A DNA stretch of 64,000 nt. It comes from an uncultured Bacteroidota bacterium. GTDB lineage: Bacteria > Bacteroidota > Bacteroidia > NS11-12g > UBA9320. Shown here in pieces: positions 6,763 to 55,526 of this stretch. The first letter of the stretch is position 1, and every line of letters begins with the position of its first letter. A model generated the notes under the pieces. That model was not told the DNA's origin, searched no databases, and saw only the letters and a program-made list of their open reading frames with translations. Where the stretch lies: contig CAKZLB010000040.1 of the NCBI GenBank assembly GCA_937124965.1, forward strand, positions 1 through 64,000, given 5' to 3'. The translations under genes were made by a program, and so were the position numbers.

Positions 6763-8679
6763 CTATAGTACGGTTTTAAGAAACTCCTTTGGGGTTTTGC
6801 CCGTTTCCTTCTTGAAGTAGGTATTGAATACCGATTTTGAGTTGAAACCACAGTCATAAGCAATTGCCATCAGCGTGAGGTTCGAATTGTCGGGGTGAAC
6901 GGCTGATTTTTTAAATGCTTCTACTCGATAATGATTGATGAATTCATTGAAGTTTTTGCCAAAACCATCATTCAACAACCAAGAAAGTTGGTTGGCGTTA
7001 ATGCCCAGTTGATCCGCTAACGAACGTAGTGTGAGTTCTGGGTTTAAATGTGGGTTTTCCGTTTTAATATGTTTCAACAACTTGTCTTTGTAGTGGTCAG
7101 CAGCTTCAGCATCTAGTAAGGCTTTTTTTGGTTTGTCTTTCGTTTTTAATTTGAATACATCTTCTGGAAACAGCTGCTTATGATACTGTTCATACCTCGG
7201 ATCGTTCTTAACTGGATTGACCACTGGGTCAGAATAACGAAGCAGTAGGAGGGGAGAACCCTCTTTTACGGCTTTTTCCACCCAATCAAATAGCTTGTCG
7301 TTCTGACAAGTTGCACCATATAACATAAATAAATATGAGTCTGCGGTAAAACCATCCTTTTCATTGGCAAGTTCTACTAATTGCTCGGTGTACGTTGCAG
7401 CTTCAGTCTGATTTCCCTTTAAGGTGTGAGCAAGTGTTAGTGATCCAATCATTTCGCCAGGAACAATTACTTGAGATGGGAGCGTTTCAAAGTAATGAAT
7501 GACGTCATCATACCTTCCCATTTTTAGTAAACACAGCGTTTTAACGTAATGGCAGGGAATGTTCAATGGATTCACGTCAAGACAACTATTTAATTGTTCT
7601 AAAGAGCTAGCATATTCTTCGAACATATAATCAAAATACGCACTGTAAAACTTTGTCTCTTGCGATAATGGGTCGATTCCTAACGCTATTTGTAGGTGCG
7701 TTTGAGCACTTTCCTTTTTTCCGCAAAGCACATATAGAAAAGACAGGAATTGTTGCGATTCAACATGACTAGGGTTGAGTGTAATGGCTTTGGTAGCCAT
7801 ATCGAAAGCCTTTCTAAAATTGTATTCTGTGAAGAAGGCCATATTGGCCAAAATATAATATGCACTCGGGAGTTCTTTGTCTAAACTTAATGCTTGATGG
7901 GTGAGTTGAGCACACTTGCCCCAACCTTCCTCGTAAGAGATCATTCCGGTAGTTGCCAAAAAGCTATAGGCATCGGCCATACCTACCATGGCTTCCGTAT
8001 GTGAGGAGTCTAAACTCAACGCTTCTTGATAGAATTCAATGGACTGTTTAACGCTTTCTGGGTTCCATTTATTCATGTGGAACCGCCCTTTTAAGAATAA
8101 GGTGTAAGCATCCAAGCTTTGAGTTTTCTGGTCAACTAAATGTTCCTGAATTTCAAAGTGACCAAAATGCTCACGTAAATGCTCAGCAATTAGGTGGCTT
8201 ATTTCATCTTGAACTTCGAAAATGTTGTCTAATGTTCTGTCCCAAGTCTCTGACCAAAAGTGAAAATCCTCTTTTGCCTCAATTAACTGTGCAGTTATGC
8301 GCATGGAGTTTCCTGCTAGTCGAACACTTCCTTCAAGAAGAGTCGAAACTCCCAACTCTTCCCCAATCTTCGTGATTGTGATATTCTTTCCTTTGAAATA
8401 GAACGCTGAGGTTCTTGACGTTACCTTTATTCCATCGATTTTCGCCAAAGCATTGATGATTTCTTCGGTAATGCCATCGCTAAAGTACTCGTTCTCTATA
8501 TCAGAACTCATGTTTACGAAAGGGAGTACGGCAATGGATTTATCCTTCAATGTTTTTACTTTAGAGGTAGAGGACAAAAATAGTATTTCTTGATAAGTGA
8601 AACGAAAATCAAGCGTTTTCACAGTTTTGCAATCGCACATACATTTTTTTGTCTGTTGGGTACTTGCCAGTGATTTCAT
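6763..8679 (-). CDS. TolB-N-like / TPR / AraC-type HTH regulator (paralog 1)
   Basis: A 638-aa protein with three parts. Residues ~45-170 match the TolB N-terminal-like domain found in bacterial cyclases and regulators (KSIAVLPFVNMSSDIENEYF, then DGITEEIINAL). Residues ~185-480 form tetratricopeptide repeats. Residues ~525-638 form an AraC-type double HTH (LRSLADQLGINANQLSWLLN, then DCGFNSKSVFNTYFKK and ETGKTPKEF). No membrane segment is evident. It is closely similar in every part to 18936-20750. The first ~45 residues have no counterpart in the paralog, so the true start may be a downstream TTG (before KDKSIAVLPF). It probably controls neighbouring genes; the signal is unknown. Confidence 0.85.
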   Translation of the reverse strand: MKSLASTQQTKKCMCDCKTVKTLDFRFTYQEILFLSSTSKVKTLKDKSIAVLPFVNMSSDIENEYFSDGITEEIINALAKIDGIKVTSRTSAFYFKGKNITITKIGEELGVSTLLEGSVRLAGNSMRITAQLIEAKEDFHFWSETWDRTLDNIFEVQDEISHLIAEHLREHFGHFEIQEHLVDQKTQSLDAYTLFLKGRFHMNKWNPESVKQSIEFYQEALSLDSSHTEAMVGMADAYSFLATTGMISYEEGWGKCAQLTHQALSLDKELPSAYYILANMAFFTEYNFRKAFDMATKAITLNPSHVESQQFLSFLYVLCGKKESAQTHLQIALGIDPLSQETKFYSAYFDYMFEEYASSLEQLNSCLDVNPLNIPCHYVKTLCLLKMGRYDDVIHYFETLPSQVIVPGEMIGSLTLAHTLKGNQTEAATYTEQLVELANEKDGFTADSYLFMLYGATCQNDKLFDWVEKAVKEGSPLLLLRYSDPVVNPVKNDPRYEQYHKQLFPEDVFKLKTKDKPKKALLDAEAADHYKDKLLKHIKTENPHLNPELTLRSLADQLGINANQLSWLLNDGFGKNFNEFINHYRVEAFKKSAVHPDNSNLTLMAIAYDCGFNSKSVFNTYFKKETGKTPKEFLKTVL

Positions 8680-49136: not shown

Positions 49137-49718
49137 TTAAGAATGAAGCGACATCGCTTTAGCGTTAATAAAACAGTTTTCCATATCATTAAAGGCTTGC
49201 TTGGCCCAAGCAATAGCTTCGTCCTGTTCTTCCTTCGTTTCAAGAGTATTCAGTTCCGCAAGAAACTCTTTCCAATTTGGCATAAGCAATGGTCCATACC
49301 CTTTGTAAAAATGAAAGCCTAATCCCGTTAAGTTTGGGTTCAGTTGAAGCTGTTTTGATATCATGGCTCCGCCTAAGGTAGAGCCTTCGATTACATACAT
49401 CCTACCATAAAACTGAGCTTTGGTTAAGGCAGGTGCAAGTGCGACACAAGAAATTGTCGCTGGATCAATTCCTAATTCTTTTAAATCCAATAACAACAAA
49501 CTGATTTTTGCTCGTTTGTTCAGATTTAATGCTTCGACATTGACTAAGCTATCTTGCCATTCTTTCTCCCAACTAGATATGTACATATAGTTTGCTACAA
49601 CTAGTTCTGTATACTGTCGAAGTGTAAGGGTTTTCTCCATTATTTCTCGTCCATAACTGTGCTTTTCTGCATTTTTGTGATCGACGTTTGTTGTACTTTT
49701 GATTGTCTCTTGAAACAT
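49137..49718 (-). CDS. Biliverdin-producing heme oxygenase
   Basis: A 193-aa protein with the bacterial heme oxygenase (HemO/BphO) layout. A likely heme-ligand His lies in TNVDHKNAEKHSYG near the N-terminus. The distal helix glycines are in YVIEGSTLGGAMISKQLQ. It opens heme to biliverdin, iron and CO using reductant. No heme receptor or bacteriophytochrome is seen beside it. It shares no operon partner; its ATG at 49718 faces the B12 locus divergently, with about 400 bp between. Confidence 0.85.
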   Translation of the reverse strand: MFQETIKSTTNVDHKNAEKHSYGREIMEKTLTLRQYTELVVANYMYISSWEKEWQDSLVNVEALNLNKRAKISLLLLDLKELGIDPATISCVALAPALTKAQFYGRMYVIEGSTLGGAMISKQLQLNPNLTGLGFHFYKGYGPLLMPNWKEFLAELNTLETKEEQDEAIAWAKQAFNDMENCFINAKAMSLHS

Positions 49719-49879
49719 TATTTAGAATCATTAAAAATAGTGGCGCAATGATAAGAAAGATATTTGAAACGAAAAATTTGATTCAAACTTTTATGTGTTG
49801 ATATTCAAGTACAAGATTTGAAATTAATAGTTTGTTAATAAAAAATGAGTTGATATCAATTTCCAACGAATACCTTTGA

Positions 49880-50095
49880 AGTAGATTTTGGTTCGTGTTG
49901 TATTTACTATCAAGACGATGAAAATGGGAAAAAGGTGAAAAACCTTTACTGTACCCGCAGCTGTAAACTCAATAAGTTGGGAAACATTCTTTTGTCACTG
50001 TTAGCCGTTGGTTAATGGGAAGACGTTTCTCAGAGTAAGTCAGAAGACCTGCCAAGATTAGCAAGTGCAATGTTTTCGGGTTAAAAACAAAGCAG
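49880..50095 (+). ncRNA. Cobalamin (adenosylcobalamin-type) riboswitch
   Basis: The aptamer's conserved pieces are in order: GGTGAAAAACC at 49934-49944, GTACCCGCAGCTGTAA at 49951-49966, the GTCACTG segment near 49994, and the B12 box AGTCAGAAGACCTGCC at 50038-50053. It lies in the leader of the BtuB-like gene. B12 binding normally closes the ribosome site or triggers termination, so the downstream uptake genes are made when cobalamin is scarce. The first and last bases are estimates. Confidence 0.95.
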
Positions 50096-50114
50096 GTTTG
50101 TCAAATAGAATCGA

Positions 50115-51926
50115 TTGATTTTACGTCTAGTTTTAGTAGGAACGTTTACCCTGTTGTCCGTTATATTTTCATTCGGACAAGTAGATTCTGTGCTCTTAGA
50201 TAGCGCATTTATTCATGTGCGCCAAAAAAAGCACTTAGTTACATTAAACGAAACTGAAAAATATCAAACAGAATCGCTATCCACTATTTTACGTGAAAAT
50301 GCTTCGGTTTATGTAAAGCCAAGTTCAGGAAATTCATTATCGTCTCTTTCTATAAGAGGAGGTACAGCCGAACAAACCGCAATTTTGTGGAATGGTTTAA
50401 GTCTTCAGAACACATTAAATGGAACAGTCGATTTGGCAATAGTACCAACACTGGCTTTTGATGAAATAGCGTTTAACGCTAATGAATCGACGAATAGTGG
50501 AGGAGGATATATTGCAGGAAGTATTGATCTGAAAAATGGTAGTATTGATACAACTATTCTTTCCAAATCATATGTTCAGTATGGATCTTTCGGAAATTTG
50601 TCAGTAACCGAACAAATTGCCATTGCACATAAAAAGTCGAGTTATGGGCTATCTTTATTCAATGCTACTGCAACAAACGATTACCCTTATAACAAGAATA
50701 ATAACAACCGCCTTGAACATGCGTCCTCAGTAAACCAAGGCATTCTCTTTGAGAGGCAACAGCGGTTTTCGAAATCTAATCCATGGAATCTTAGGCTATG
50801 GATGCAACAGAGTGATAGGCAGATTCCAGCTACTATACTTGAGGGGCAATCAAAAAAATATCAGGCCGATAAAAGTATTCGTGTGCAAAGTGATTGGTCG
50901 TTTCAAAAGAAAAAAAACAGTCTAAAGCTAAACGTTGGAAGTTTTTACGAAACACTCCAATATAGAGATTCAATCTCTAAAATATTCTCGGATTACTCGT
51001 TTCTAAATTCATCTTTTTTAGCACATTACGTGTATGATCACAGCAAAAAACTTACAATTGGCGCTGATGCTGAATTAAGAAATTTTACTGGAAATGCTGA
51101 CACTTTTTATAATCAAAACAGAGTTGAAATAGCCGAGGCGCTTCATGTATCATTTAAAATGAAACGATTTCGCTTAAACAGTAGCGTTCGCTTTGTTCAA
51201 TATTCTAACTCGCAAGACCAACCATTGCTTTTTGCTATGAACACTACTTATGATGTTAAACGGAATTGGTCAATTACATCCTCTTTTTCAACAAATTACC
51301 GTATGCCAACTTTTAATAGTTTGTATTGGAATCCGGGAGGAAATGCCTCACTTTTATCAGAGAGAAGTACGAATTGGGAAATTGGTGCCCACTACAAGAC
51401 AATGCGCTTTAAGTCGGATATTATTCTTTATTCGAATTACATCAACGATCAAATACGTTGGCTACCAGGCTCTGATGGGATTTTTGAAGCACAGCAAATA
51501 GTAGGTTCTACACAATGGAATCGAGGAGTAGAAGTCAGCAATAAACTTGCGTTGAAGAATTTAACTTTTTACATCAATGGGGCATATGTGCGCTCCACAA
51601 ACCTAAAAAACGACAACCAGTATCAACAAACTCAGGTGCCGCTAATCCAATATACTACGGGTTTTCAATATTCATTAAAACAATGGGCATTTTCGTACAA
51701 CAGCTCATATTTAGGAAAAAGGTTTATTGATATCGAAAATACTCTATTCTTACCTTCTGTCTTACTGCATAATGTTGCAATAAAGAGGGATATAAAGTCG
51801 CTTATACTCACGCTAGGAGTTAGGAATGTTGCAAACGTGTATTACACGGTTTTACCATTTATGCCTAACGCACCTAGAAATTATTACTTCAACGCATCCT
51901 ATAAAATTCACAAAAAAAAGAAATGA
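50115..51926 (+). CDS. btuB: BtuB-like TonB-dependent cobalamin receptor
   Basis: A 603-aa receptor starting with TTG at 50115, followed by a signal peptide (LVLVGTFTLLSVIFSFGQ). The plug domain (~40-165) has SLSIRGGTAEQTAILWNGLS and the strand pair SGGGYIAGSIDLKN. The 22-strand barrel follows to the end (AYVRSTNLKNDNQYQ, then NYYFNASYKIHKKKK). It imports cobalamin across the outer membrane with energy from TonB-ExbBD. The cobalamin riboswitch directly upstream is the strongest functional evidence. It is shorter than many BtuB-type receptors and ends in a Lys tail. Confidence 0.92.
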   Translation: MILRLVLVGTFTLLSVIFSFGQVDSVLLDSAFIHVRQKKHLVTLNETEKYQTESLSTILRENASVYVKPSSGNSLSSLSIRGGTAEQTAILWNGLSLQNTLNGTVDLAIVPTLAFDEIAFNANESTNSGGGYIAGSIDLKNGSIDTTILSKSYVQYGSFGNLSVTEQIAIAHKKSSYGLSLFNATATNDYPYNKNNNNRLEHASSVNQGILFERQQRFSKSNPWNLRLWMQQSDRQIPATILEGQSKKYQADKSIRVQSDWSFQKKKNSLKLNVGSFYETLQYRDSISKIFSDYSFLNSSFLAHYVYDHSKKLTIGADAELRNFTGNADTFYNQNRVEIAEALHVSFKMKRFRLNSSVRFVQYSNSQDQPLLFAMNTTYDVKRNWSITSSFSTNYRMPTFNSLYWNPGGNASLLSERSTNWEIGAHYKTMRFKSDIILYSNYINDQIRWLPGSDGIFEAQQIVGSTQWNRGVEVSNKLALKNLTFYINGAYVRSTNLKNDNQYQQTQVPLIQYTTGFQYSLKQWAFSYNSSYLGKRFIDIENTLFLPSVLLHNVAIKRDIKSLILTLGVRNVANVYYTVLPFMPNAPRNYYFNASYKIHKKKK

Positions 51927-53563
51927 AAAAATTCACCTTAATCACATTATTTATTTTAGCATTTGCTTTGTCATACGGACAAAATAAACTTAGCTGGACC
52001 AGTACCTTTGAGACCGTAAACCTTGGAAAAGCAGATACATTTTGGAATGGTTCTGACGAATCAGAAGGCTTTTTAAATGGTCGTGCTTTTTACAGAAATA
52101 TCTATGATACAACGTACAACGTATGGAGTGGGGTATCGGTTTCGAGTATGACAGATACAACAACCACCGGTTATACAAATCAATATAGTTCTATCACTGG
52201 TTCTGGGGTGAATTATTCAAAACAATACGCGGTCATTGGAACAGAAGCGATTGTTGTTCTCGATACAGCTGATGTAATAGATGGATGTTATGTTACAAAT
52301 GGAACCTATGCAGCTCGAAGCATGGAAAATGGAGATGGCTTTGCTAAAAAGTTTGGAGGAACTTCTGGTAATGATCCAGACTTTTTTCGAATTATTGCTA
52401 CTGGATATATTGGTAAGGATTCAAATGTTACTTCCTTCTATTTAGCAGATTTTCGTTTCAATGATAATACAGAGGATTACATAATAACGGATTGGATGTA
52501 CTTTGATTTAGCCGTGTTAGGTGATGTAGATTCAATTCGGTTTACCTTGGAAAGCTCCGATACTGGCCAATACGGTATGAATACACCAGGCTTTTTCTGT
52601 TTGGATAATTTTAATGCTGAACAGCTTCAACAGTCAGGCTATGGTATTTCGAATTACTGGTTTGATCAGTATATTCCAAACGATAGTTTTGAAAATGGTG
52701 CCAATTACAACGGTGGTTTTCGATTTGGTCAAGTATTTTTTAAAAATGATTATAATCCAACATGGCAAAGTTGGTCGGGTTGGTCAATATCATCCATGAA
52801 AGATTCAATTAACGGAAATTATAGCAATCAATATAGTTCGATAACTGGTGGTGGGGCTGGTGGCTCACAAGGCTACCTAGTTGGGTATTCAGATGCGTCC
52901 ATATACTTTCCGTATTCGAACGAATTCACGTTTAACCCGTTAATTGTTAGAGAGTATCGAATGAAAGTAAGCAACTCAACCTATGGTTATAAAACTATGA
53001 AGGATGGAAATAATTTTGCGAAAAAATTCGGTGGAGATTCTGGCGATGATAAGGATTTTCTCGTATTGAAAGCTTGCGCTATTTCGTACGATGGTAGTAC
53101 GTCTGATACCTTAGAGCACTATTTAGCTGATTACAGATTTGATGATAATTCTAAAGACTATATCCTAAACGATTGGGCAACTTTTGATCTACATGATATC
53201 CTATTCAATCAAACGATAGTGCGCTTAGATTTTTGGATTGAAGGTAGTGACACCGGTCAATATGGTTTGAACACTCCAGCCTATTTTTGTGTGGATCAGA
53301 TGCTTCCAATGTTCGGATCTGTTAAGGATAAAAAAGTAGAAGTTCATCTTTCAATCTTTCCGAACCCTGTTTCTGACAAGCTTTATTTGGACATAGATGC
53401 ACGTGTTTCGGAAGTTCAAATTATTGATATTCAGGGAAATATGCATCAAGAGTACAACGGCTCGAGATCAATGTTTGATATTTCTAATTTGGCAAATGGT
53501 GTGTATTTTATTCGTTTAAACACCGATAAAGGTATAGTTTCGAAACAGTTTATTAAAAAATGA
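51923..53563 (+). CDS. Tandem DUF4465 T9SS-exported surface protein (BtuH-like by inference)
   Basis: The 546-aa protein has a signal peptide (KKFTLITLFILAFALSYGQ) and two DUF4465 units. The first spans ~20-235 (FETVNLGKADTFWNGSDES, then KFGGTSGNDPDFFRI). The second spans ~245-460 (WFDQYIPNDSFENGANYN, then KFGGDSGDDKDFLVL). Both keep SSxTDTxxxxYxNQYSSITG-like and SSDTGQYGxNTPxxFC segments. A type A T9SS sorting domain ends it (LSIFPNPVSDKLYLDI, then NGVYFIRLNTDKG). From Bacteroides B12 loci DUF4465 proteins are thought to bind cobalamin at the surface. ATG overlaps the receptor stop as ATGA. Confidence 0.85.
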   Translation: MKKFTLITLFILAFALSYGQNKLSWTSTFETVNLGKADTFWNGSDESEGFLNGRAFYRNIYDTTYNVWSGVSVSSMTDTTTTGYTNQYSSITGSGVNYSKQYAVIGTEAIVVLDTADVIDGCYVTNGTYAARSMENGDGFAKKFGGTSGNDPDFFRIIATGYIGKDSNVTSFYLADFRFNDNTEDYIITDWMYFDLAVLGDVDSIRFTLESSDTGQYGMNTPGFFCLDNFNAEQLQQSGYGISNYWFDQYIPNDSFENGANYNGGFRFGQVFFKNDYNPTWQSWSGWSISSMKDSINGNYSNQYSSITGGGAGGSQGYLVGYSDASIYFPYSNEFTFNPLIVREYRMKVSNSTYGYKTMKDGNNFAKKFGGDSGDDKDFLVLKACAISYDGSTSDTLEHYLADYRFDDNSKDYILNDWATFDLHDILFNQTIVRLDFWIEGSDTGQYGLNTPAYFCVDQMLPMFGSVKDKKVEVHLSIFPNPVSDKLYLDIDARVSEVQIIDIQGNMHQEYNGSRSMFDISNLANGVYFIRLNTDKGIVSKQFIKK

Positions 53564-54522
53564 GATTAGTCCAATGTATTTGTTTGGTGATTCTACCATT
53601 TTATTCTTTTTGCCAGTATGACCCAGCTGGAGGAGAAACAGGGAGTAATGCAATTCATCGTGATAACGGATCATTAAGTTACTGGGGAGATTCGGTGATC
53701 GTTGAACGCGGTTCTGCTAAAATTGGGGATGTAAAAGCCGTTGAAGTAACACTTGGCTCTGCTTCCGATGCTCTGGGAAAGCCTGATAATTATACGATTA
53801 GTCTAGGAGACGGAGGTAAGGCAACCTACTTCTTCGAACGTACTATTCAAAACATCCAAGGTCCCGATTTCGTAGTTTTTGAAAATGGATTTGAATGGGC
53901 AGGAGGGTACTTTCTTGAATTGGCTTTTGTGGAGGTAAGTAGTGATGGAAAAAACTTTGTACGATTTCCATCGAAATCTGCTGCAGATACTGCCAAACAA
54001 ATTGAAAACCTTAGTTATATGGAGTGTGTCTGGTATCATAACTTAGCTGGAAAACACCAAGCACCTTTCGGGACACCTTTCGATTTAGACGAACTTAAAG
54101 ATTCTCAAAATATTGATATAACGTCAATTTCACACATTCGTATAGTCGATGTTATAGGATGCCTAAACGATAGTTTCGCAACATACGATAGTGATGGTAA
54201 AAAAATCAATGATCCATGGCCAACCAACTTTGAATCTAGCGGTTTTGATTTGGATGCAATTGGTGTTTTGCAATTTTCGTTATCCGACAAAAAAGACGCA
54301 CATAAACGTTTTGTTTTACGCAATCCAGTGAATATAGGTCAGAGAATTCCTTTTACTATTCCATGTGAATCGTACGAAATTGTTAACGAAATGGGGCAGG
54401 TGTTATTGACAGGAAATCAGTCATATTTTACCATACCAACCCACTGGAAACCTGGCATCTATTATGTTCGACTTACATCAAACAATTCAATTTATACTCA
54501 AAAAATATGCGTCTTGGATTAA
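53560..54522 (+). CDS. T9SS-tagged surface protein of B12 locus, uncharacterised
   Basis: A 320-aa protein with a signal peptide (VQCICLVILPFYSFCQ). The core has GETGSNAIHRDNGSLSYWGD, then KPDNYTISLGDGGKATYFFE, DFVVFENGFEWAGGYF and SSGFDLDAIGVLQ. This pattern is familiar from unnamed surface proteins; its role is not known. The last ~70 residues resemble a type A T9SS sorting domain (RNPVNIGQRIPFTI, then KPGIYYVRLTSNNS), so it is likely exported and anchored. ATG overlaps the preceding stop as ATGA, so it belongs to the B12 uptake operon. A cobalamin-related function is inference from position. Confidence 0.75.
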   Translation: MRLVQCICLVILPFYSFCQYDPAGGETGSNAIHRDNGSLSYWGDSVIVERGSAKIGDVKAVEVTLGSASDALGKPDNYTISLGDGGKATYFFERTIQNIQGPDFVVFENGFEWAGGYFLELAFVEVSSDGKNFVRFPSKSAADTAKQIENLSYMECVWYHNLAGKHQAPFGTPFDLDELKDSQNIDITSISHIRIVDVIGCLNDSFATYDSDGKKINDPWPTNFESSGFDLDAIGVLQFSLSDKKDAHKRFVLRNPVNIGQRIPFTIPCESYEIVNEMGQVLLTGNQSYFTIPTHWKPGIYYVRLTSNNSIYTQKICVLD

Positions 54523-55526
54523 CATTATTAATATCATTAGCAATCATATCCTGTGACGACAATAGTGTTGTACCTCCAAATCCAGGAAATATTTCTGCCG
54601 CTGATGTTTTGGTTGCGAATGAAGGTGGATTTCAACGTGGTAATGCCAGTTTAGGTCTTTATAATGTCTTGGAAAATGTTTACGAAACATCGATTTATCA
54701 GAATAATAACAATGAGCCTTTAGGCGATGTACTGCAATCAATTAATACGTTGAATGGTCAGTATTGGCTAGTCTTAAATAATTCAGGAAAAATCGTCATC
54801 ATAGACTCAATATCACTCAAAAAAGTAGACCAAATAAATGGATTGGTTTCGCCTCGTTTTATCCAATTTTCAAGTAATGGTAAAAAGGCGTTTGTATCGG
54901 ATTTATATGGCGACGAAATTACAGTGATAAATACAACTTCGAGAGCTATAACAAACCGAATTTCGCTGGATGGATGGGCAGATCAAATGGCACGAATTGG
55001 TCAACAAATTTATGTTGCAAACCGAGAGAAGCCCTATGTTTATGTAATAAGCGAAGTGTCAGAAACTGTTGTGGATAGCATCATGATTCCAAATAATCCA
55101 AACAGTTTGATTTGGTTACGTGACAGTCTCATTGGAGTTTTGTGTGAAGGAAAGTTAGGAAGTTCAGATCGTACCAAATTTCAAGTTATTCATGTTGGAC
55201 AGAAGACCTTACTAAAGGAACATACATTTGACGAAGGAGTAAAGCCAAGTTTGCTTCGAAAGAGTCCAAGAAATGGAAACATTTACTGTGCATTTAAAGG
55301 AATTCACTACATAGATCCTGTCGATTTCGAGTATCAATACAAAACCATAGATTTACCAGATGCTAACGTGTATGGTTTTGATATTGACCCATCAAATGGA
55401 AATATGTATGTTAGCGACGCAAAAGATTATGTTCAGAAAAGTACTGTTCGAGTCTACTCTAATTCTGAAGATTTCAAACAAGAATTTACAGCAGGAGTCA
55501 TTTGTAATCAATTAATTTTTCGCTAA
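54507..55526 (+). CDS. btuG: BtuG-like beta-propeller surface lipoprotein
   Basis: The 339-aa product has a lipobox LAIISC (Cys16) and a YncE/DUF5074-like seven-bladed propeller pattern (VLVANEGGFQRGNASLGLY, then SNGKKAFVSDLYGDEITVIN, then GNIYCAFKGIHYIDP). In Bacteroides BtuG is a propeller lipoprotein that binds cobalamin and caps BtuB. Here the same pairing appears behind the same riboswitch. The start overlaps the preceding gene by 16 bp. The BtuG identity rests on fold pattern and context rather than on known ligand residues. Confidence 0.8.
   Translation: MRLGLTLLISLAIISCDDNSVVPPNPGNISAADVLVANEGGFQRGNASLGLYNVLENVYETSIYQNNNNEPLGDVLQSINTLNGQYWLVLNNSGKIVIIDSISLKKVDQINGLVSPRFIQFSSNGKKAFVSDLYGDEITVINTTSRAITNRISLDGWADQMARIGQQIYVANREKPYVYVISEVSETVVDSIMIPNNPNSLIWLRDSLIGVLCEGKLGSSDRTKFQVIHVGQKTLLKEHTFDEGVKPSLLRKSPRNGNIYCAFKGIHYIDPVDFEYQYKTIDLPDANVYGFDIDPSNGNMYVSDAKDYVQKSTVRVYSNSEDFKQEFTAGVICNQLIFR

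Follow-up and report, generated by a model that had tools for sequence, protein, structure and literature searches.

The cobalamin riboswitch and the four genes that follow it

We analysed a 64,000-nucleotide stretch of DNA from an uncultured Bacteroidota bacterium (the window; contig CAKZLB010000040.1 of assembly GCA_937124965.1) and examined a riboswitch-headed operon of four genes, which is very probably the vitamin B12 (cobamide) scavenging system of this organism, made of BtuJ and BtuH-like capture proteins exported by the type IX secretion system (T9SS) and of a BtuBG importer. The riboswitch, the gene identities, the T9SS tails, the conservation of the operon and the regulatory tie to B12 of its third gene, provisionally named G3, were established by computation. 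The operon comprises the following features.

49850..49878, + strand: Bacteroidota-type promoter TTG-N18-TACCTTTG with -33/-7 boxes, read from the sequence
49872..50070, + strand: cobalamin riboswitch aptamer, RF00174 (cmscan 94.0 bits, E 4.3e-22)
50115..51926, + strand: btuB-like gene for a TonB-dependent receptor of 603 amino acids, TTG start proposed (TonB plug and barrel; PF00593, PF07715)
51923..53563, + strand: btuJ-like gene for a protein of 546 amino acids with a signal peptide, two DUF4465 domains and a T9SS tail (PF14717; PDB 9hmu, 9fct)
53560..54522, + strand: G3, gene for a protein of 320 amino acids with a predicted BtuH-like domain and a T9SS tail (TIGR04183, loci of relatives, structure models)
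54507..55526, + strand: btuG-like gene for a beta-propeller surface lipoprotein of 339 amino acids (PDB BtuG match; PF16819)

The first-pass annotation, made from the letters of the sequence, had placed a cobalamin riboswitch before four overlapping genes and had named a poor score against the cobalamin covariance model as a refuting result. The match spanned the full model (1-189) and its 94.0 bits compare with a gathering score of 31.5, and the successive gene overlaps were 4, 4 and 16 bases, so that this claim was borne out. The source genome (4.09 Mb) has no other cobalamin riboswitch. The promoter abuts the aptamer, and 20 of the 27 cobalamin riboswitches checked, including that of the window, had a TAnnTTTG box bordering the aptamer on its 5' side; the -33/-7 boxes were called with what we take to be the Bacteroidota promoter consensus. 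Folding of the aptamer and leader RNA gave a stability no greater than that of shuffled sequences (z 0.04), and scans for sigma-70 promoters and terminators stayed at chance level. All riboswitch counts given here come from cmscan, a regular expression for the B12 box having been too strict (known riboswitches were missed).

The receptor and the propeller lipoprotein

The receptor had TIGR01779 (TonB-B12) as its best NCBIfam match (E 1.5e-20), yet stayed under the equivalog cut-off of this family. Its best solved relatives in the PDB were the BtuB proteins of the BtuBG complexes 8p97, 8p98 and 8bmx (E ~4e-24). The protein encoded by the last gene matched DUF5074 (PF16819) at 41 bits, and its best solved relatives were BtuG structures (8bmx, 8bmy and others, E ~1e-31). 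A lipobox, LAIISC followed by DDN, was read from the sequence, with its cysteine codon at 54552-54554. The BtuB-like receptor and the BtuG-like propeller lipoprotein of the first-pass annotation were thus both recovered. In four other loci (L124:5709-7001, L127:4486-5754, L144:5490-7004 and L185:586-1899), T9SS-tagged, propeller-looking proteins are encoded directly 5' of G3 and BtuB; the BtuG profile matches that of L127, which suggests that T9SS-exported BtuG-like proteins exist elsewhere.

The tandem DUF4465 protein

Three features were delimited within the second gene.

52112..52612, + strand: DUF4465 domain 1, HI loop NTPGFF with Phe in place of Tyr (profile search 165.5 bits; motif)
52760..53299, + strand: DUF4465 domain 2, HI loop NTPAYF, the canonical B12-binding motif (profile search 150.5 bits; motif)
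53354..53560, + strand: T9SS sorting tail TIGR04183 (54.3 bits; Pfam 47 bits)

The two full PF14717 domains, which scored 302 bits in all, are related to BtuJ1 and D5EK51, and the search against solved structures returned 9hmu and 9fct (BtuJ1) with E-values of 1e-20 to 2e-17. Eight divergent members of the DUF4465 (BtuJ) family, one of them from Fluviicola taffensis, bind B12 (PMC13398666). By its sequence, the protein of the window is a further member of the BtuJ family, and its own cobalamin binding is predicted from that of these other members. The first-pass annotation had named BtuG and BtuH as the known Bacteroides parts and had set the DUF4465 accessory apart from them; its place as T9SS cargo stands, but DUF4465 was already known as the BtuJ family. 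Neither of its two refuting results was obtained: the riboswitch scored far above the gathering score, and the searches returned not families tied to other ligands but BtuG structures for the propeller and BtuJ structures for the DUF4465 protein. In L097:4741-8566 and L098:4973-8769, three BtuH-domain genes in a row precede a gene for a DUF4465 lipoprotein that has no T9SS tail, and no BtuB was seen among the neighbouring genes of these two loci.

T9SS tails of the two middle proteins

Both middle proteins had been described beforehand as T9SS-tagged accessories taking the type IX route, and profile searches agreed. The DUF4465 protein matched Por_Secre_tail at 47 bits and TIGR04183 at 50.4 bits, and G3 matched TIGR04183 at 29.4 bits (cut-off 23 in both cases). 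The Pfam Por_Secre_tail model gave 17.5 for G3, under its cut-off of 27; the tail of the G3 family is firm, being matched by this model in 14 of 18 relatives (best E-value 1.4e-14), and in the full-length model of G3 the tail matched the T9SS tail of 8glk with a Z score of 8.7. No convincing lipobox was found in the DUF4465 protein or in G3, and BtuG is the only lipoprotein among the accessory proteins. The source genome encodes SprA (2362 bits), the translocon component that was searched, and at least 150 T9SS sorting tails. From these sequence features, the DUF4465 protein and G3 are predicted to reach the cell surface. With a signal peptide and a C-terminal sorting domain they resemble other type A cargo (TIGR04183), whereas the cargo usually cited consists of proteases and polysaccharide enzymes and that of this operon is predicted to bind a vitamin.

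Among 95 surveyed DUF4465 proteins, 85 had a T9SS tail and no lipobox; members of the Bacteroides-like and Flavobacterium-like kinds lack the tail and are lipoproteins. A published count has the T9SS tail (IPR026444) in 229 of 824 DUF4465 sequences (PMC12751083); the T9SS tags on DUF4465 proteins are therefore already published and are not new here.

G3 and its regulatory tie to B12

What this work adds in substance is that G3 can be assigned to the B12 regulon as a BtuH-like protein exported by the T9SS. The protein consists of a signal peptide, one domain and a T9SS tail, and sequence searches of Pfam and the PDB matched only the tail, weakly.

53608..54288, + strand: G3 domain modelled alone, residues 17-243 (AlphaFold2 mean predicted local distance difference test score, pLDDT, 94.6; predicted template modelling score, pTM, 0.92)
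54364..54507, + strand: G3 T9SS sorting tail, residues 269-316 (TIGR04183 29.4 bits; 8glk Z 8.7)

A scan of species genomes returned at least 481 relatives of G3 across the Bacteroidota, with a few in records labelled as other phyla. We surveyed the 80 best-scoring loci, in 78 of which a G3 frame was called; the resulting fractions may fail for the most distant relatives. A T9SS tail was found in 75 of the 78 loci. BtuB, BtuG or DUF4465 was encoded on the same strand at most four genes away in 60 loci, and a cobalamin riboswitch lay upstream in 12 of the remaining 18, so that 72 of 78 loci are linked to B12. Where loci with such gene neighbours were scanned, the riboswitch was present in all 13. 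In L183:3059-4036, G3 is directly 3' of a cobalamin riboswitch and has no same-strand neighbour, so that its regulation may be independent of other genes.

Other loci differed in their surroundings. A thiamine pyrophosphate riboswitch (L187:6458-6546) lies on the opposite strand just upstream of a G3 homologue (6983-7948) that has no B12 neighbour. In L180:6968-7948, from a record titled Phycisphaerae bacterium, DUF4465 and G3 adjoin, neither having a T9SS tail, and a dockerin-like stretch was read by eye at the C-terminus of G3. In Bacteroidales loci, G3 is often preceded by a gene for a T9SS-tagged protein of about 395 amino acids, for example L121:5811-7004, with similar genes in L125, L132, L137, L146, L150, L154, L164, L181 and L188; a cobalamin riboswitch was upstream in the scanned loci L121, L125, L132, L146, L150, L154, L181 and L188. 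The L121 protein carries tandem DUF4430 domains (PF14478, 51 bits), the L132 copy being under threshold. DUF4430 is presumably a transcobalamin-like family, and these proteins may represent one more class of exported B12 binders.

Structural comparison of G3 with BtuH

The G3 domain model, built from 69 sequences, was compared with solved structures. VIA-align ranked BtuH2 (7biz) first, with a Z score of 12.5, a root-mean-square deviation of 3.0 and 161 aligned residues, and residues 392-660 of 8blw_B (the H-domain of BtuG1) second, with a Z score of 11.7, a root-mean-square deviation of 3.4 and 165 aligned residues; CBM32 domains ranked below both (Z at most 10.0). A separate, lower-confidence model of full-length G3 again gave 7biz first (Z 11.1). 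In the Foldseek list 8blw_B was at rank 11 and 7biz was not among the first 50.

Profile comparison with hhalign gave P 4.5e-4 for G3 against BtuH in one comparison, the controls ranging from 0.017 to 0.8. The first trials, with three BtuH sequences, had given weak scores; the full-length one aligned the tails only, and those with the BtuH domain alone were weak and in the same register as the final alignment. In this alignment the G3 stretch SLGDGG...DFVVFENGF stands opposite the BtuH stretch SLGGFGG...DFSIQGNAF. The phosphate and lower ligand of B12 are contacted in BtuH2 by Asn399 and Phe401 (PMC8941943). When these two residues were taken, from the motif and after allowing for a slight shift in numbering, as the asparagine and phenylalanine of GNAF, they aligned with N109 and F111 of G3, which are near-invariant (91 of 91 and 88 of 91 sequences, respectively) and are encoded as an N-x-F motif at 53884-53892. 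The models thus point to a BtuH-like fold for G3, and from these comparisons G3 would be a T9SS-exported BtuH-like B12 binder.

Several observations weigh against this assignment and against B12 scavenging by the operon. The profile match between G3 and BtuH was weak, with a probability of 33% over 37 columns, and BLASTP found no significant pairwise similarity between them. Of the BtuH2 contacts Q333, N399, F401, H476, Y510, W511, W577 and L578, only N399 and F401 were mapped. BtuH has a fold that distantly resembles CBM32, CBM32 domains reached a Z score of 10.0 with the G3 model, and the N-terminal immunoglobulin (Ig) domains and the lipid anchor of BtuH are absent from G3. Domain 1 of the DUF4465 protein lacks the conserved HI-loop tyrosine that contacts B12; the phenylalanine found there need not imply lost binding, because many single-domain members of the order also have it. 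Finally, BtuFCD was not found, which leaves the pathway incomplete at the inner membrane.

It is unlikely that G3 is instead a T9SS-exported carbohydrate-binding protein (CBM32 or F5/8C-like), or a purely structural one, carried as a passenger in the B12 operon and not binding B12. Such a protein would fit the CBM32 domains (Z up to 10.0) that come next after BtuH among the structural matches, the galactose oxidase and F5/8C-type domains that had the best Foldseek E-values, and the absence of sequence-level homology to BtuH. However, both solved BtuH domains outranked all CBM32 entries, G3 is under a cobalamin riboswitch in 12 of the 18 loci that lack another B12 gene beside it (in L183 with no same-strand neighbour), and in the profile alignment its near-invariant N109 and F111 fall on B12-contact residues of BtuH2. 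We consider it very improbable that G3 corresponds to BtuL, a protein of B12 loci that affects the release of vesicles and does not bind B12 (PMC12751083): BtuL is, like G3, a surface accessory of a riboswitch operon, but the structural match of G3 is the BtuH domain, and BtuL was set beside G3 by description only. Import of another corrinoid-like or tetrapyrrole ligand such as heme is scarcely credible, for although a Heme_oxygenase Pfam match lies upstream of the operon (49137-49718, minus strand) and the receptor matches the hemoglobin-receptor family TIGR01786, more weakly than TonB-B12, a cobalamin riboswitch heads the operon, BtuB, BtuG and BtuJ match solved structures of B12 systems, and the heme-oxygenase-like gene is divergent.

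Conservation of the operon

DUF4465 was found in 77 of 108 genomes of the window's order, mostly in the tandem form in the window's family and in the single form in the sister family. The common gene order in this order was BtuB, DUF4465 with a tail, G3 (in some loci) and the BtuG lipoprotein, with the riboswitch present in all 8 loci scanned. The same operon type was found across T9SS-bearing Bacteroidota. The first-pass annotation had suggested a variant of the surface-capture machine in a lineage with T9SS; the operon is indeed a variant of a known design, but a widespread one, shared well beyond this lineage. Upstream of it lies the heme-oxygenase-like gene (49137-49718, minus strand; PF01126, 45 bits), and in relatives a divergent gene of similar length occupies this position.

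The inner-membrane step

The source genome encodes three users of B12: MetH, methylmalonyl-CoA mutase and IcmF. The search for BtuC (FecCD) in this genome returned only a 38-bit cross-match to the permease of an ATP-binding cassette (ABC) transporter in a metal (Mn/Zn-type) transporter-like gene set. BtuC, taken as FecCD above 100 bits, was present in 64 of the 70 sister-family genomes; in the window's family only 2 of the 38 genomes had it and 36 lacked a true BtuC, although 31 of the 38 had a DUF4465 gene. Gaps in draft assemblies are an unlikely cause, because the pattern is so consistent across genomes.

Three candidates for this step were rejected. Several sister genera have an ABC exporter-like gene of about 605 amino acids just 3' of the operon, but it was single-copy in 27 of 27 genomes, BtuC-bearing ones included, and so resembles a housekeeping gene of the MsbA type. 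ABC_membrane_2 (PF06472), which we take to be the family of Rv1819c and ABCD4, had no member in the source genome or in any of the 65 genomes of the order that were searched. A stand-alone BtuF-like protein of 266 amino acids in the source genome had no signal peptide by eye.

Comparison with Bacteroides and implications

Because G3 has a BtuH-like predicted fold, the set encoded by the operon matches the G, H and J components of Bacteroides, with H and J on the T9SS and not on lipid anchors. The window shares with the loci of Bacteroides thetaiotaomicron (btuB-btuG-btuH-btuJ-btuK-btuL, with the BtuBG 'pedal-bin') the riboswitch, BtuB, the BtuG lipoprotein lid, BtuJ (DUF4465) and, by prediction, the BtuH fold. 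It differs in the T9SS tails that replace the lipid anchors of H and J, in a tandem two-domain BtuJ, in a BtuH-like protein without Ig domains, and in BtuFCD, which is neither in the locus nor found in the genome. Compared with BtuJ proteins (DUF4465, IPR027828), the window protein has the full PF14717 domains, the canonical HI loop (in domain 2) and the T9SS tail, while its tandem arrangement and the Phe in place of the conserved Tyr of domain 1 set it apart. With BtuH (7biz) and the BtuGH H-domain (8blw), G3 has its best structural match, and the weak profile alignment puts its N-x-F motif in register with the B12-contact motif, whereas it shows no detectable pairwise similarity to them and is a small single domain with a T9SS tail.

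At low cobalamin levels in the cell, the riboswitch would be relieved and the operon expressed. BtuB, a TonB-dependent channel, and BtuG, its lipoprotein lid, would form an outer-membrane importer like the BtuB-BtuG importer of Bacteroides (PMC10404256). The tandem BtuJ and the BtuH-like G3 would be exported by the T9SS through their C-terminal tails and would be either attached to the surface or released to the medium; in either case they would catch cobamides. We infer that they would then hand these to the BtuG lid, which would load BtuB with the captured cobamide. We advance more tentatively, as a possibility that we do not favour, that G3 founds a phylum-wide family of riboswitch-controlled, T9SS-delivered B12-capture proteins with the BtuH fold, some of them diffusible, haemophore-like scavengers, and that the inner-membrane carrier of the window's family is not BtuFCD.

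Most microbial communities compete for B12, and studies of its surface capture in Bacteroidota have centred on the lipoproteins of gut Bacteroides. With BtuFCD missing, the passage of B12 across the inner membrane becomes a defined question. If G3 binds B12, many hypothetical 'T9SS sorting-domain' proteins of aquatic, soil and animal-associated Bacteroidota would gain a function, BtuH, described in print as lacking known structural homologs, would gain a distant relative, and vitamin capture would be added to the roles of the T9SS. Capture proteins that are released, not anchored, would alter the sharing or theft of B12.

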